Assembly: GCF_003722075.1 (NCBI RefSeq)
Contig: NZ_RDSK01000003.1
Coordinates: 1 to 51,830 of the forward strand
Source: Methanohalophilus sp. RSK
Lineage (GTDB): Archaea > Halobacteriota > Methanosarcinia > Methanosarcinales > Methanosarcinaceae
Direction: 5' to 3'
DNA: 51,830 nucleotides
Shown here: positions 24,864-31,584 of the stretch, in pieces
How the letters are laid out: every line of letters begins with the position of its first letter
How positions within the stretch are numbered: the first letter of the stretch is position 1
Translations under genes and position numbers: made by a program
The notes under the pieces: generated by a model
Seen by the model: the letters and a program-made list of their open reading frames with translations, nothing else
Told to the model about the DNA's origin: nothing
The model's database searches: none

Positions 24864-25145
24864 TCAGATGATCTTTGGAGTTTTTATGTAGCCTTCCTGT
24901 ATCTCTTCAGCATTTGCAAGAATATCATCCTGCTCCAGGGAATCTTTTGGCTTATCTTCCCTGAATACATTCATGACATCGGCAACGTGGTATGTAGGTT
25001 TGACATCCGAGGTATCCACCTCATCCAGCTGTCCGAAATAATCCAGCACAGTGCTTAGTTCCGATGCAAATTCAAAAGCATCCTCCTCATCGATATTGAC
25101 CCGTGCAAGCCAGCCGATGTGTTCTACCTGTTCCTTTGTAATCAT
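24864..25145 (-). CDS. gatC: Asp/Glu-tRNA amidotransferase subunit C
   Basis: A 93-residue GatC, the small scaffold that wraps GatA and GatB. It begins MITKEQVEHIGWLARVNI and has the typical FGQLDEVDTSDVKPTYHV core. It is the first gene of the gatCAB operon. Confidence 0.93.
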   Translation of the reverse strand: MITKEQVEHIGWLARVNIDEEDAFEFASELSTVLDYFGQLDEVDTSDVKPTYHVADVMNVFREDKPKDSLEQDDILANAEEIQEGYIKTPKII

Positions 25146-25216
25146 AATATGAAGCCTCTGTAAGCGTTATATAGCGTATGTGTTACACAAAAGGTAATGC
25201 TATTAATATGTTCTTA

Positions 25217-26380
25217 TCAGGCCTTTTTACTCCTGCGGTTTACACCATACATCTGTACCTTTTTCATCCTGGCAAGATTGAGCACCCTGTCCATCTCATA
25301 GTCCTCCAGGGGCCTGGCCTCCAGAAAACCATTTTCCACAGCTTCATTGAATATCTCATAACCAATACTGGACCGGGCAAAAACCGTGGTGTAACCATCC
25401 GGCGTACCCACACCCCCGAAACTTATATCGGAATTTTCTGCCGCCATGTCGGTACAGAACTTGCATGAGGAAGACCTGTATTCATCAAATTCGGACAGAG
25501 AGAATCTGCTAATCTGACCTGCCTGCTCAAACTCGAACTTACCCTTACGGATCTTCATTGCATCAATATCCGCAAGTCTCATACCATGGTTTTCAACAAA
25601 TTCCTTGATGCCTTCGTAAGAAAATGTGTCCATACAGAATAGTCCCAGACGCAATACATTGGCCCTCATGAACAAATGCAAAAAACCATAGGGACTACGC
25701 TGCGTCTTGTAAACTGCATCTATATTGCAACTTGGACCTACAAAAGCAATACTTCGCATACCTTGCTGAATAGCCTGCATCAACTGTTCCATTGTCATGC
25801 TGTGAGAATACATGCTACCAGAGGACTCAAGGACCTGTGCACGGTCCTCAGCAATAATTGCAACCGGTTTCCAGGGTTGATCCTTTGAATGAGTGGTTAC
25901 TACCGCACAATCAATCAGACCTTCCTTCAGCCCATAAGCCAGCAATGCCGTAACAGCACCTCCATCCTGTCCCTCATGCCGGGGAAGAAGGCTTTTGGCG
26001 CTGTATGCAAACCTGAGTTTGCCCACAAGTTCCTCTTCTGTAGTAATCGTGCGAGGGCACTGGTTGTAACACACCCCGCATGATGTGCATGGTCCTACTA
26101 TTTTGGGACGTTTATCCTTTATTGCTATGGATTCACAGGATGCAGCACATGCTCCGCAGAGGGTGCAGATACCCGGCTTGATAACATCTTTGTTTAGTTT
26201 GCCAAAAGAAACACGTTTTTTCTCATCAAGACTGCGTTTGAGACGTATTACGCTTTTCTTCATCTCATCAAATGTTTTCAGGCATTCACTTGAACAAAAA
26301 TAATAGGTTTCGCCGTCATATTCTTTCTGGAAAGAAGTGTCTTCAGCAATCTCTTTTTTACAAATAGGGTCCTGCTTCAT
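25217..26380 (-). CDS. YHS domain-ferredoxin-FrhB fusion, F420-dependent oxidoreductase family
   Basis: A 387-residue fusion. Residues 1-45 form a YHS/TRASH-type metal-binding domain (DPICKKEI then YYFCSSECLKTF). Residues 65-115 hold two ferredoxin clusters (CTLCGACAASC; CTSCGVCYNQCP). The remainder is the FrhB/FdhB-type coenzyme F420 oxidoreductase domain (GQDGGAVTALL; FVGPSCNIDAVY; CKFCTDMAAENSDIS). It probably passes electrons between F420 and an unknown partner. I start at ATG 26380, where GGTGAA lies at 26385-26390. It is transcribed away from an unassigned radical SAM gene across a 98-base gap. The N-terminal YHS domain is not part of FpoF or FrhB. Confidence 0.8.
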   Translation of the reverse strand: MKQDPICKKEIAEDTSFQKEYDGETYYFCSSECLKTFDEMKKSVIRLKRSLDEKKRVSFGKLNKDVIKPGICTLCGACAASCESIAIKDKRPKIVGPCTSCGVCYNQCPRTITTEEELVGKLRFAYSAKSLLPRHEGQDGGAVTALLAYGLKEGLIDCAVVTTHSKDQPWKPVAIIAEDRAQVLESSGSMYSHSMTMEQLMQAIQQGMRSIAFVGPSCNIDAVYKTQRSPYGFLHLFMRANVLRLGLFCMDTFSYEGIKEFVENHGMRLADIDAMKIRKGKFEFEQAGQISRFSLSEFDEYRSSSCKFCTDMAAENSDISFGGVGTPDGYTTVFARSSIGYEIFNEAVENGFLEARPLEDYEMDRVLNLARMKKVQMYGVNRRSKKA

Positions 26381-26478
26381 TATATTCACCACAAAAACTG
26401 TCTACAATAGGATATCCATGCACTATTATAAACTGATGGCAGAAAACTATAATTAATCTTACTACCCACCATGAGTAC

Positions 26479-27456
26479 ATGGATGCCCAGATCAAAGCCG
26501 AATTACTGGCAACAGGAAGAGTGGCCATCGATGAAAAACTACTCGGGAAACCCACTGTTTCAAGTGCAGGACCGGGTGCCGGTAAAGTAGGTTTCTTTTT
26601 TAGTTCCGGAGGACACCGGGTAAAACTTGGAGCAGATGTAAAATCCCCTTTAAAAGCGCTTAAAAAGGATGGAAAAATCTGTATCTACAAAAATGAGAAG
26701 CTCCTTGCCTGTGGACAAATTGAAGAAGAACTGCTTCACTGTCCAGAACAGGCGTATATCAATATGACCGAGACCTGTATCTTTGACTGCAAATTCTGCC
26801 CGGTCCCAAAACTCAATGGCAGGGTCAAATCAGTGGAAGAAGTGCTGGATATGATAGAAAAAGCACATGATACAGGAAAGATGAAAGCCATATCTATCAC
26901 TGCCGGAGTTGATGAGACAGTTGAAAAGGAAGTTGAAAGGGCGGTTGATGTTGTCAGGAAGTGCAAAAAATACAATGTACCCATTGGAGTTTCGGTATAT
27001 CCCACAATCAATTCCAACAAACTGCTAAAAGAGGCCGGCGCAGATGAGATAAAATATAATGTAGAGACAATGGATCGCCAGCTGTACAGCGCGCTTTGTG
27101 GCGAACAGGACCTTGACTTTATACTGGACTGCCTTTCCGAAGCTGTCCTGATGTTTGGCAAGAACAGGGTTTGTTCCAATTTCATAATCGGTTTGGGAGA
27201 AAATGATGAAACTGTAATGCAAGGAATACGGGAACTTGTACGCAGAGGTGTGGTTCCTATCCTGAGACCCGCAGCAAGCCATTCCCTCAGAAAGGAAGAG
27301 GTTAATATAGAGAGGCCTTCAAAAGAGCGTATCCTCAAACTCACCCGTTTCCTGAGAGAAGAGCTGGATCAGGGCGGACTTGATACAAGACTGTTCGGGA
27401 CAATGTGCCTGCCATGCACAGGTTGTGACCTGGGCCCTCATAGAGATCTGAGATGA
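26479..27456 (+). CDS. Radical SAM protein of unknown function (BioB-like)
   Basis: A 325-residue radical SAM protein. After a 95-residue N-terminal domain comes the cluster motif CIFDCKFC within NMTETCIFDCKFCPVPK, then a TIM-barrel core (ISITAGVDE; EIKYNVETMD; SNFIIGLGENDE). The C-terminus has a separate cysteine motif CLPCTGCDLGPHRD, which could bind an auxiliary cluster. The barrel resembles BioB/PylB-like enzymes, but I cannot assign a product. It is divergent from the YHS-FrhB fusion, with a TATA-like element near 26447 close to the ATG, so its mRNA may be nearly leaderless. Confidence 0.75.
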   Translation: MDAQIKAELLATGRVAIDEKLLGKPTVSSAGPGAGKVGFFFSSGGHRVKLGADVKSPLKALKKDGKICIYKNEKLLACGQIEEELLHCPEQAYINMTETCIFDCKFCPVPKLNGRVKSVEEVLDMIEKAHDTGKMKAISITAGVDETVEKEVERAVDVVRKCKKYNVPIGVSVYPTINSNKLLKEAGADEIKYNVETMDRQLYSALCGEQDLDFILDCLSEAVLMFGKNRVCSNFIIGLGENDETVMQGIRELVRRGVVPILRPAASHSLRKEEVNIERPSKERILKLTRFLREELDQGGLDTRLFGTMCLPCTGCDLGPHRDLR

Positions 27457-27552
27457 AGAACCGGTCGACAAAATTTGTGCATAATTATAAAAGATGCCAC
27501 TGTGCGAAAATTAAGGAAAGTATTTATTGCAAAGGGATTCCAAGGGTTGACT

Positions 27553-27765
27553 ATGAGTCTGTTGGAAAAACTCTATAACATCAATGTGGGCTATATCATA
27601 ATAGCAGGGATTGCCCTGACTGCTCTGCTCTTTAAATTCCTTCTCCAGTATGCCGAAGAAGGGAATCTGGTACTTGTTATATTGCTTGGTCTTGCTATTG
27701 GTTTTGTGGCCACATTAATTACGCGGGTTGTCAAGAACCAGCGCTATTTACAACAAATTAAATAA
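27553..27765 (+). CDS. Small two-helix membrane protein
   Basis: A 70-residue protein with two hydrophobic segments (YIIIAGIALTALLFKFLL and LVLVILLGLAIGFVATLI), a short acidic loop and a basic C-terminus. I start at ATG 27553 (MSLLEKLYN), with AAGGGTTGA upstream; an earlier in-frame start would add a basic stretch. It lies 96 bases after the radical SAM gene and is convergent with the nuclease gene. I do not recognise the family. Confidence 0.55.
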   Translation: MSLLEKLYNINVGYIIIAGIALTALLFKFLLQYAEEGNLVLVILLGLAIGFVATLITRVVKNQRYLQQIK

Positions 27766-27768
27766 CAT

Positions 27769-28761
27769 TCATTCCTTTCCCAGGCCTTTCAGGATTGCCT
27801 CCCTCCATTCAGAGGCGTTTTCCACATCATATATGTGCCTGGTAATACTTTCCTTTGATTCAAGGATTGCAAGTTTATCCTTGTGTAATATTCCCTGTTT
27901 CTCAATCTCTGCCCCTGCAATATCCTTCAATCTGATAGTTTCGATATTGTCTTTATCCATCATGAGAAATCTGCGGTTGGTAAGCACCAGACAACCTTTT
28001 TTTTCCTATCCAAATTTCCGGAGGGTTTCGCCCCGCAGAAAAGAAGGACGAAACAATTCAAGGTTCTCTGCAAAACTTTTCGGCTCCCTGATCGAAAGGG
28101 CCAGTACCTCAGGATTTTTCTCATCGATTACTATATAGAGGGAATTTGTATCCTGTTTCAAACCTATAACTGAACTTGCATCTATTCTCCTGATAAGTTC
28201 TTTTTTCTTTGAGAAAAGAGTGGCAGTTATTTTTTCAAAATACATATGTTTCTTTGTGAGTACCAGCCATATCCTGTCTCCTTCAATTGTTGCGCTATGT
28301 CTTCCAAATACTTGTTCACCGGTTTCAAGCACATCAACCCCCCGTCCTTTCCGGTGGAAACTCTCCCCTTCATCAGGACAATAATGGTTAAGCATCTCGG
28401 TAAGCAGGGGGCCTTCTATCAGCTTGATGTTGTGTTTTGCCCCTTCCATTCTTCCTTCACCGGTAAAACTGGAAGTGGTAACAATAATTACTCCATCCAC
28501 ATTTTCTCTGTAAGACAAACTGCCATATTCACGCACTTCCTTGACCCCTACAGGCCCTGAATAACGTTTGGCCTGGACAAGCCATCGATGGGAAAGACCA
28601 AAATTATCAATCGATATTTCGATATCGACACCCCCATCCCTGCTCTGTTGTGTCGATTGGGTATTATAACCCATTTTATCAAAAAGGTGAGCTACCAGCC
28701 TTTCAAAATCATAAGGGTCAAGATTGAGCAGTTGATTAATTTCCCACATTAAATCATTCAT
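27769..28761 (-). CDS. Mrr-type nuclease with PH-like C-terminus, containing an in-frame TAG
   Basis: Residues 1-130 resemble the Mrr_cat restriction-endonuclease domain: FERLVAHLFDKMGY, then DGGVDIE and VQAKRY, the PD-(D/E)xK active-site pattern. Residues 155-245 look like a PH-like beta domain (VFGRHSATIEGDRIWLVLT). A TAG occurs at codon 252 (28006-28008). The same frame then continues for 78 codons as EKKGCLVLTNRRFLMMDKDN and a second PH-like segment, ending in TGA at 27769. Read through, the product is 330 residues; stopped, 251. I start at ATG 28761 (MNDLMWEI), which overlaps the stop of the upstream zinc-ribbon frame. Pyrrolysine insertion, a nonsense mutation or two separate genes are all possible. 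Confidence 0.7.
28006..28008 (-). other. In-frame TAG, candidate pyrrolysine codon
   Basis: TAG is the only stop between two same-frame halves of the Mrr/PH protein. No intact CDS I assign in this window terminates with TAG, which is the pattern expected when UAG is reassigned to pyrrolysine in Methanosarcinaceae. An A8 run directly after it (gaaaaaaaagg on the - strand) also leaves room for an indel-related artefact. Confidence 0.5.
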
Positions 28762-28921
28762 CCACGGTATAGGACAGGCCACATTCCGGACAGGAATACG
28801 TTACTGTTCTGCCAGCATTCTTATTTTTATTCTCGATCCTATTCATCCATGTGCCACAGGTTACACATTTCTGATCGAATATTGTGCGGTTGCTTGATTT
28901 TTCACTGTCTGCTTTTGTAAT
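28754..28921 (-). CDS. Small zinc-ribbon protein coupled to the Mrr-like nuclease, unusual start
   Basis: A 55-codon frame ending at TGA 28754 encodes two CxxC knuckles (CVTCGT and CPECGLS), the pattern of a DNA- or RNA-binding zinc ribbon. No ATG, GTG or TTG opens the frame before the first knuckle. The best-placed start is ATT at 28919-28921, preceded five bases earlier by a perfect GGAGGGG. The frame overlaps the nuclease start by 8 bases (GTGGATGAATGA), implying translational coupling. Either AUU is used as a start, the base is a sequencing error, or the gene is decayed. Confidence 0.5.
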   Translation of the reverse strand: MTKADSEKSSNRTIFDQKCVTCGTWMNRIENKNKNAGRTVTYSCPECGLSYTVDE

Positions 28922-29071
28922 GGAAACCCCTCCAGGATGGGCAATTGTTGGTTGTGCACTATTTGTGAATAACCATCCAAACCTTTAAATGTATGCAGTA
29001 CATAGCTAATTGGTAATTGATCAGAATCACAGATATAGCTTATGAAATATCTAAATAATGCGAGGGGAAAC

Positions 29072-29464
29072 ATGGACGAACTCGAAGAAATAAGGAAGAA
29101 GAGAATGAAAGAGATAAAGACAGATCTCGAAAAGGCCAACTGGCCTGCAGAAGCCATGATAGTATCAGATGCCGATTTTGAAGATTTTGTAAGCCGTTAT
29201 CCACTTGCTGTAGTGGACTGCTGGGCAGAATGGTGTGGCCCCTGCAAAAAGGTCGGGCCGATAATAGACTCCCTTGCCGGGCAGATGCAGGGAGACGTTG
29301 TTTTTGGCAAACTCGATACGGACCAGAATCAGGTTACTGCGAGAAAATTCCAGATCACTGCAATTCCAACCCTTCTTGTGTTCAAAAATGGGCAACTTGC
29401 AGACCGAATGGTGGGTGCATTGCCACAGGCAAACATACAGGAAAAAATTAAATCATACCTCTGA
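29072..29464 (+). CDS. Thioredoxin
   Basis: A 130-residue thioredoxin with the WCGPC active site at residues 54-58, the cis-proline in AIPTLLVFKNG, and a 30-residue charged helical N-terminal extension (MDELEEIRKKRMKE). It is a cytoplasmic disulfide reductant. I start at ATG 29072, which has GAGGGGA upstream; an ATG at 29042 lacks a site. Marker 14 follows after 12 bases. Confidence 0.92.
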   Translation: MDELEEIRKKRMKEIKTDLEKANWPAEAMIVSDADFEDFVSRYPLAVVDCWAEWCGPCKKVGPIIDSLAGQMQGDVVFGKLDTDQNQVTARKFQITAIPTLLVFKNGQLADRMVGALPQANIQEKIKSYL

Positions 29465-29476
29465 GGGACAGATTTT

Positions 29477-30913
29477 ATGTCACACAAACCCAGGATGGCC
29501 GAGACTCCTTCCGTTAGACTGATAGACCTGAAATCAAAATCCAATTCCTATTTCATAGTGGCCTCTGTAGAAGTGGGCAATACGACCACCAAATGCATCC
29601 TGACGGCCACAGATCTTGAAAAAGGTACGACATACCATGTGGTGAAAACTGTAAGGATGACAAGGGATGTAAGACAACCAAAACCTGGAGAAGAAGTATT
29701 CGGCAAGACGCTTACAGGAGTGGAATTGAGCCGTGAATCCGTGGCAGAACTTGTCAAGAACACGCTGATAGAGGCTGTCAAAAAAGCCAACCTCGATATA
29801 GAAAAAGATATTCACTTCGTTGTCCGATCCACCGGCGTTGTGGCCGGATTCGATGCACCGGAAGAAGTGGGAGAATTTATCAAAGCTCTTGCAGACGGCT
29901 GCCTTCTGGCAGGAGTACCTCCCAGGAACATGACACCTCCGATGTCCCAGGATAATATAAACCCCAGATTCCAGAAGTTCAGTAAACTCAACAAAGTTAT
30001 TTTTGATGGTGCAGTTGCCAGCGTCCTTCCTCCCACGGGGGCCACAGGTGTGGAAATCGTGGCCAATGAGATGGAGGGAGAACTTGCAACCGCCGGTATT
30101 AAAGAAGGAGCGAAATGGGTGGATGTGGATTTCCGCAATCCCTGTTTATCGATGGATTTTGGGACCACGCTAGATGGACGGGTCATCAGCCCGGAGGAGC
30201 CCTATGCAAAAACCATTGGGAACTTCTGTGGCTATGCAGGAGCCATTCCCGATGCTATAATCCGTGGGACCCAGCTTGTGGATTTGGAACTGGGAACCGC
30301 TCTTGATGTCTTTGACGAAAAGCCTCCGGGCATGATTACCATGTTCCTGAAGGGGAAGAAAATAAAGGAATATGCAAACCGCCTGATGGAAAAGATATCT
30401 ATCGAAAAGGTACCTGAAAATGTTACCCGTTATGGAAGTGTCCCTGTAAATCCTGCCGCTGCAGCCGAAATTGGGGTCGTGCTCATTGGATGTGACGTGG
30501 GTACCAATGGTTCAAAAATGGATGAATTAACAGAACTGGGGGCCCAGATTTACAAAGAAGAGGGACTCAAGGTCCTGTTCGCAGTAATCGATGAAGTGAT
30601 GGCAGGTGTAATCTACCGCCTTGTGGAAGTGGCACAGAAAGAAGGAGTTGTATTTCCTGAAACTTCCATTGGAATTACCGGAAGGGCCGGCATATCAGGA
30701 GATAAACCCAAACTTGTGCTTGAAAAACTGGAAACACTGGGGTTGGGAGATAAAATCGAAGAAAAAGTCGTATTTGTCGATGACGGGCTTGCAAGGGGTG
30801 CAGCAGTGATGGCACGATGTATGAATTCACTGGGAACCCCTCATAATCCCCTGGGCGGCCATACAGGCGGCAAATGCATCCTCAAGGACAGGATCAAATT
30901 GCAGAGCCAGTAA
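29477..30913 (+). CDS. Methanogenesis marker protein 14
   Basis: A 478-residue protein recognised as the methanogenesis marker 14 family, found in methanogens and of unproven function. The N-terminal VASVEVGNTTTKCIL and later SMDFGTTLDGRV resemble phosphate-binding loops of actin/Hsp70-like ATPases, and GIGVVLIGCDVGTNG-type glycine loops recur. The C-terminus ends in a glycine- and cysteine-containing GGHTGGKCILKDR. It follows the thioredoxin gene with GAGGGA as ribosome-binding site, which suggests a shared transcript. Confidence 0.85.
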   Translation: MSHKPRMAETPSVRLIDLKSKSNSYFIVASVEVGNTTTKCILTATDLEKGTTYHVVKTVRMTRDVRQPKPGEEVFGKTLTGVELSRESVAELVKNTLIEAVKKANLDIEKDIHFVVRSTGVVAGFDAPEEVGEFIKALADGCLLAGVPPRNMTPPMSQDNINPRFQKFSKLNKVIFDGAVASVLPPTGATGVEIVANEMEGELATAGIKEGAKWVDVDFRNPCLSMDFGTTLDGRVISPEEPYAKTIGNFCGYAGAIPDAIIRGTQLVDLELGTALDVFDEKPPGMITMFLKGKKIKEYANRLMEKISIEKVPENVTRYGSVPVNPAAAAEIGVVLIGCDVGTNGSKMDELTELGAQIYKEEGLKVLFAVIDEVMAGVIYRLVEVAQKEGVVFPETSIGITGRAGISGDKPKLVLEKLETLGLGDKIEEKVVFVDDGLARGAAVMARCMNSLGTPHNPLGGHTGGKCILKDRIKLQSQ

Positions 30914-30915
30914 AC

Positions 30916-31584
30916 TCATTCTTCTGAGAGGGTTTTCAGAGCCTTCTCAATTGCTTTTTTATGCAACTGGGCCGAATCATGGATTCCTCCCAGCTGCCCT
31001 CTGACAGCCCTGCAAGGGTATTGCTGGATTAACAAACCTGCCTTTGCAGGGGCATCCTCCACTCTTGTACCGATCAGTTTTTCCGCCATTCTCCATGTGC
31101 TGCCGCAGGGTGCCCCTTTCAGGACCCGGACATCCGATATATAGCCGTTTTTAGTGGAGACTTCGAATTCCGGAAGACCAAAGACACTGGAATATGGTGC
31201 TGTTTCTTCCTTTTCCGCAAGAGTACAGCATATCTCATCCACCTCGATATAGATACCATATTCCGAAGATATTCTATCCAGTTCGACAAGTGGGGCCCGG
31301 GAAGAGCCTCCGGGTACGATCAATGAGGACACACCGGCTTTCCCGGCTAGGCGGGCAATCACCGGTGTAATATCGGGATGCAGAGAATAAGTTATTATGG
31401 TGTCTGCATTGAATACATCCGGATTGATATCCAGTCTTTTTACAAATTCTTCCGGCTCATCCAAAAAATCGGGTAACCTGGCAGGCAGGGATGCAGTTTT
31501 GACGGTGAAATCCGAATGTTGACGTAATGTTTCTATCAATCTGTTGCCGTACTTACCCCTTGTAATTACTCCTATAATCGTCAT
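30916..31584 (-). CDS. DUF166 family protein
   Basis: A 222-residue protein of the archaeal DUF166 family, sometimes loosely named thymidylate-synthase-like. Recognisable parts are the N-terminal GVITRGKYGNRLIETL, the central LIVPGGSSRA and the cysteine-bearing KGAPCGSTWRMAEKLIG. Cysteines in EICCTL, GAPCGST and YPCRAVRGQ could bind a metal or cluster. It is convergent with marker 14, with a 2-base gap, and divergent from the small zinc ribbon. Function unknown. Confidence 0.78.
   Translation of the reverse strand: MTIIGVITRGKYGNRLIETLRQHSDFTVKTASLPARLPDFLDEPEEFVKRLDINPDVFNADTIITYSLHPDITPVIARLAGKAGVSSLIVPGGSSRAPLVELDRISSEYGIYIEVDEICCTLAEKEETAPYSSVFGLPEFEVSTKNGYISDVRVLKGAPCGSTWRMAEKLIGTRVEDAPAKAGLLIQQYPCRAVRGQLGGIHDSAQLHKKAIEKALKTLSEE

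Follow-up and report, generated by a model that had tools for sequence, protein, structure and literature searches.

Certain archaeal genomes reportedly use UAG as a sense codon throughout, an archaeal 'Pyl code' reportedly described by Kivenson et al. in Science in 2025; the genome studied here may resemble them in a genome-wide reading of TAG as pyrrolysine. In MtmB, MtbB and MttB an in-frame UAG is read as pyrrolysine by the pyl machinery, and the residue is described as always present and located in the active site (PMC8211752). Thg1 of Methanosarcina acetivorans is a non-methylamine protein that gained an amber codon in one lineage, and this codon is described as not essential for activity (PMC2933860). 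For 'Ca. M. alvus' (Methanomassiliicoccales), a published analysis predicts 16 pyrrolysine proteins beyond the methyltransferases, Cas1 among them, and makes a drift argument comparable to ours (PMC4153887).

Here we describe an Mrr-type nuclease gene of the halophilic methanogen Methanohalophilus sp. RSK, the single in-frame TAG of which is, on comparative sequence evidence, very probably decoded as pyrrolysine. The gene lies in a 51,830-nt stretch of contig NZ_RDSK01000003.1, hereafter the window (Table 1). As in MtmB, MtbB and MttB, the same pyl machinery would read the UAG; unlike in those proteins, the site is variable, and relatives mostly have Arg, Gln or Lys there. The nuclease is like Thg1 in being a non-methylamine protein with a lineage-specific amber codon and a probably dispensable residue, but it belongs to another protein family and its TAG is common to two species within a near-identical tract. 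With 'Ca. M. alvus' the genome shares low usage of TAG as a stop and many non-methylamine genes with an in-frame TAG, one of them defence-type; that organism, however, belongs to a different order, and the accessible part of its description mentions no TAG allele common to two species. Drift of this kind is thus already published for another pyrrolysine-using methanogen, and the nuclease is a further case. The first-pass annotation had called a non-methylamine pyrrolysine protein unusual, which now appears overstated, as this genome seems to hold several and others have been predicted in 'Ca. M. alvus'.

Table 1. Features of the nuclease locus, in window coordinates.
Feature	Position	Strand	Remarks
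Mrr-like nuclease CDS with PH-like segments	27769..28761	-	330 residues, including the predicted pyrrolysine at codon 252
In-frame TAG, very probably read as pyrrolysine	28006..28008	-	codon 252; AAG (Lys) in G121, G045, G149 and G009; TAG in G041
TGA terminating the full-length frame	27769..27771	-	from the open-frame reading
A8 run (T8 on the + strand)	27997..28004	-	one base (G) 3' of the TAG
Mrr_cat nuclease domain	28390..28728	-	Pfam PF04471, E 8.5e-30, 103.7 bits against a cut-off of 21
First PH-like segment	28057..28341, limits approximate	-	from profile comparison with the second segment
Second PH-like segment	27799..28008	-	Pfam bPH_3 (PF14470), residues 259-328; match starts at the TAG codon
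Small zinc-ribbon ORF	28754..28921	-	5' of the nuclease gene, overlapping its start
Tract near-identical to G041, with the TAG inside; likely recombination tract	27758..28062		3 differences in 305 nt

The nuclease frame starts with an ATG at 28761 on the minus strand and is open as far as the TGA except for the one TAG, in agreement with the first-pass reading of two halves in a single frame. Full-length matches with 93-95% identity were found in five congeners. The Pfam Mrr_cat match covers residues 19-131 (numbering from 28782), and D49, D53, Q70 and K72 in the same numbering, which we take to be the catalytic residues of the nuclease fold, are invariant in all 32 aligned rows. The profile score above the cut-off and the conserved residues argue for membership of Mrr_cat, and nuclease activity is predicted on this basis. 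PADLOC returned matches to PDC-S02 (E 2.4e-19) and mREase_IV (E 6e-13), with coverage only of residues 11-134, that is, of the nuclease domain. The catalytic domain and its residues are thus like those of Mrr and the type IV restriction endonucleases. A search through 149 genomes sampled within the order yielded 47 full-length matches, the window genome counted, as well as many genomes with matches to the nuclease domain only. Because 45 of the 47 fall in the window's own family, the gene looks like a resident one.

The parallel between two C-terminal PH-like segments, also drawn in the first-pass annotation, holds only weakly. Comparison by hhalign gave a probability of 71.5% in local mode and 17.1% in global mode, and bPH_3 matched the second segment with E 0.0014 and 19.5 bits, under the gathering cut-off of 23, which was exceeded by none of ten scanned homologues. 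An AlphaFold2 prediction based on three rows that were almost identical could not be used (mean pLDDT 43.2), and a phmmer search of the PDB returned a single match that was not meaningful (E 0.27). Upstream of the nuclease gene, the in-frame C..C...C..C pattern of the zinc-ribbon ORF was found in 20 of 30 homologous loci.

The continuation beyond the TAG is conserved. The first-pass annotation had raised the possibility that homologues all end at this point, but 44 of the 47 full-length homologues carry no stop, two carry TAG (the window genome and a second species, G041) and one carries TGA (G134). The last of these (G134:C67:2547-3539) has a single in-frame TGA, possibly an error or decay. 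We aligned 32 rows (loci L005-L034 with L003 and L004, of which L003 and L007 are one species), and the frame after the TAG aligned across all of them. Thirty rows had a sense codon at the site, which is R in 14, Q in seven, K in six, I in two and S in one. The close congeners G121, G045, G149 and G009 have GAA AAG where the window and G041 have GGA TAG, so that the lysine anticipated in the first pass is indeed present in them; across the family the site is variable. In the two less closely related congeners the codon is AAA (Lys, G133) or AGT (Ser, G090). Most simply, the TAG would have replaced the lysine codon AAG by a single base change, next to a change of GAA to GGA (Glu to Gly) in the preceding codon. 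Re-initiation at a GTG shortly 3' of the TAG (ORF 27769..27987) was considered and rejected, since the start would fall inside a conserved LVLTNRR stretch.

Conservation of pyrrolysine across the nuclease family, as for a functional (catalytic) pyrrolysine, was not seen in the 32 aligned rows. Because the site varies, a catalytic role for the residue is unsupported, and the TAG would be tolerated at this position; pyrrolysine at codon 252 is probably neither needed nor functional. Folding of the RNA 3' of the TAG gave no signal of a PYLIS-type structure (z 0.51; 136 of 200 shuffles folded as well or better). RNA structure is described as not a necessary factor for UAG decoding (PMC3639795).

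The genome possesses the machinery that this reading calls for. The pyl genes, named for a search in the first-pass annotation, were all found: pylS, pylB, pylC and pylD score above their NCBIfam cut-offs, and a tRNA with a CUA anticodon (general Rfam tRNA model, 37.8 bits) lies just upstream of pylS. The name tRNA-Pyl, or pylT, is assigned from the anticodon and the position next to pylS. Two mtmB genes with an in-frame TAG in the same genome serve as a positive control. PylS scored above the cut-off in 74 of the 149 genomes of the order. The pyl genes, the mtmB TAGs, the conserved continuation and the TAG of the second species together support pyrrolysine as the meaning of UAG, as the first-pass annotation had proposed.

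TAG is rare as the end of ORFs in this genome. Among 44 window ORFs with a score of at least 12, only one ends in TAG, the nuclease gene itself, against 22 in TGA and 21 in TAA; this agrees with the first-pass observation that none of roughly 49 other CDSs ends in TAG, although such rarity is weak evidence alone. In a 442-kb sample, about 22% of the genome, TAG ended 8 of 241 ORFs at a score of at least 25, 9 of 279 at 20 or more, and 11 of 339 at 12 or more. Read-through is supported for nine of the 11, the other two being pylB and a 119-aa ORF. Two of the 11 are the mtmB genes. In five more, the Mrr gene among them, congeners have sense codons at the position of the TAG. A rubredoxin-TPP enzyme (L053:435-2249, +) has its in-frame TAG where G041 has GAG and G009, G045 and G121 have GAA, in a comparison that left aside rows L094-L098 (five paralogues, 31-33% identity). 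A THUMP/UPF0020 methyltransferase (L043:11885-12940, -), whose similarity to TIGR01177 falls short of the cut-off for that model (268.1 against 316.55 bits), has a DPPY stretch 3' of its in-frame TAG, and six congeners have CAG and one CAA at the site. The THUMP methyltransferase gene of G090 (L086) contains one in-frame TGA, possibly an error or decay. In a copper-type P-ATPase (L041:7863-9845, +) the TAG lies 30 codons from the end, and CAG is found in five congeners and TAT in one. A small protein without a Pfam match has a two-residue tail beyond its TAG, which corresponds to TAT in four congeners and TAC in one. Finally, Pfam domains span the in-frame TAG of a TRM5/TYW2-type methyltransferase (L056:15577-16599, -) and of a PAS histidine kinase (L054:8759-10396, +).

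As a control, the same ORF procedure (score of at least 20) was applied to 80-kb stretches of G003, G033, G019 and G073. In G003, which is without PylS above the cut-off, TAG ended 2 of 44 ORFs, and the extensions scored negative for coding. In G033, which has PylS and belongs to the same family, the one TAG among 28 ORFs is a true stop, with another stop immediately after it. G019 had one TAG in 35 ORFs, with a coding extension of 752 codons, and G073 none in 35. Rarity of TAG stops, tried as a diagnostic, is therefore weak: G003 has few without PylS above the cut-off, and G033 has a true TAG stop with it. The diagnostic is the reading into conserved sequence and not TAG rarity alone.

The TAG allele of the nuclease gene is probably of common origin in the two species. 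Over 25001-31500 the alignment of the window with G041 shows 389 differing positions, about 6%; about 18 differences would be expected by proportion in the 305-nt tract around the TAG, against the three observed. Over 27772-28050 the other close congeners differ from the window at 17 (G149, G121 and G045) or 26 (G009) positions. The dS between the window and G041 is 0.262 upstream of the TAG and 0.021 downstream. The longest identical run shared with G041 in 25001-31500 measures 131 nt and adjoins the TAG. Other identical runs in this interval, of 129 and 126 nt, are a caveat on recombination; the 126-nt run also occurs in G149, and the greater part of the 129-nt run in G045 and G121, and the 131-nt run differs in this. 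One allele including the TAG thus probably passed between species when a stretch of about 300 bp underwent homologous recombination.

We propose that this Methanohalophilus genome in effect uses UAG as a sense codon. PylS would charge tRNA-Pyl(CUA), pyrrolysine would be inserted at codon 252 and translation would go on to the TGA. With efficient decoding of UAG in the cell, the change to TAG would have been a near-neutral drift, and recombination would probably account for its presence in both species. The insertion of pyrrolysine and its efficiency are predictions, as are the neutrality of the residue and the activity of the nuclease.

An unlikely alternative is that UAG mostly terminates here, so that the main product is a nuclease of 251 residues with a single PH-like segment and the read-through form is minor. 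The genome has one full-length match to aRF1 and a further partial match below the cut-off, and release factors are described as competing with tRNA-Pyl at UAG (PMC8211752). Because aRF1 is present, decoding would presumably proceed by competition with Pyl-tRNA. The TAG of pylB also speaks for termination, as it stands at residue 354, where the PylB profile ends (residue 351), and so does the TAG without any extension in the family member G033. Because pylB and the 119-aa ORF are not clearly read through, UAG may still terminate sometimes. However, the short form of the nuclease would drop a segment retained in the 44 stop-free full-length homologues, and TAGs in place of Gln, Glu and Tyr in other enzymes suggest efficient read-through. 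The pylB gene itself (L002:3783-4964, -; G000:C1 303785-304963) has a TAG near its natural end in all eight genomes of the genus, and read-through would add 39 residues overlapping the pylC reading frame. Such a TAG near the natural end is on record for M. mazei, M. acetivorans and M. burtonii (PMC2933860); possibly it is a self-sensing stop of the pyl operon. The 119-aa ORF (L048:13862-14257, -) is methyltransferase-like and ends in TAG with an 11-codon extension.

Quite unlikely, too, is that the UAG is a nutritional switch. Cells with methylamines and enough pyrrolysine would make the full-length protein with two PH-like segments, and otherwise the 251-residue form with one; the two forms would differ in activity or location, and recombination would have spread a useful allele.

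A recent nonsense mutation that left a pseudogene in both species is very unlikely. The stop is single in an otherwise conserved gene, and few changes are recorded since the TAG arose; indeed, the 3' likeness of the two TAG alleles means that selection has had little time to leave a record. Decay is nonetheless hard to reconcile with an identical TAG retained by two species, with intact catalytic residues and with TAG apparently decoded elsewhere in the genome, and no further stop or frame break was found in the window species or G041. Of five codon changes after the TAG, three private to the pair (codons 262, 284 and 297) and two between the window and G041 (278 and 298; one synonymous, one non-synonymous), four are synonymous and one is non-synonymous, against a random expectation of about 4/5 non-synonymous (S 49, N 185 sites; binomial p about 0.008, transition bias uncorrected). 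The three synonymous changes shared by the pair may predate the TAG. The A8 run noted as a caution in the first-pass annotation is indeed present. The chance that the adjacent TAG is an error of sequencing or assembly is practically negligible, because, as also counts against decay, the continuation is conserved, congeners have Lys and the separate single-contig genome G041 carries the same TAG and flank, so that the triplet is not a lone read error, and the frame is continuous without any indel. At the A8 run both TAG species have AAA AAA, against AAA AAG in the four close congeners with Lys.

Decoding of UAG as pyrrolysine would illustrate, in a single genus, the passage of a stop codon to an ordinary sense codon. 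In ordinary enzymes, including RNA-type methyltransferases, lineage-specific TAGs occur a single base away from codons for Lys, Gln, Glu and Tyr, and one TAG allele seems to have passed from one species to another. Such proteins would be truncated by gene callers that apply the standard code. Should these enzymes depend on read-through, pyrrolysine would be needed for growth on any substrate.

Congeners at such TAG sites have mostly codons one base from TAG. Across a larger sample of G041 (140 kb, score of at least 20), TAG ends one of 88 ORFs, namely the Mrr gene. Among ORFs near the nuclease homologue in seven congeners (score of at least 12), TAG was found in G041 (the Mrr gene) and in two genes of G149, the other five having none. 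The two genes of G149 encode an MBL-fold protein (L073:12224-12919, -) and a CCG-domain iron-sulfur protein (L073:7772-8833, +). In the window and six other congeners the MBL site is CAG in five, the window included, and AAA and GAA in one each; the CCG site is GAG in six, again including the window, and GGG in one. A single in-frame TAG is likewise found in each of two TPP-enzyme paralogues of G149 (L096; G149:C2:1112049-1113668).
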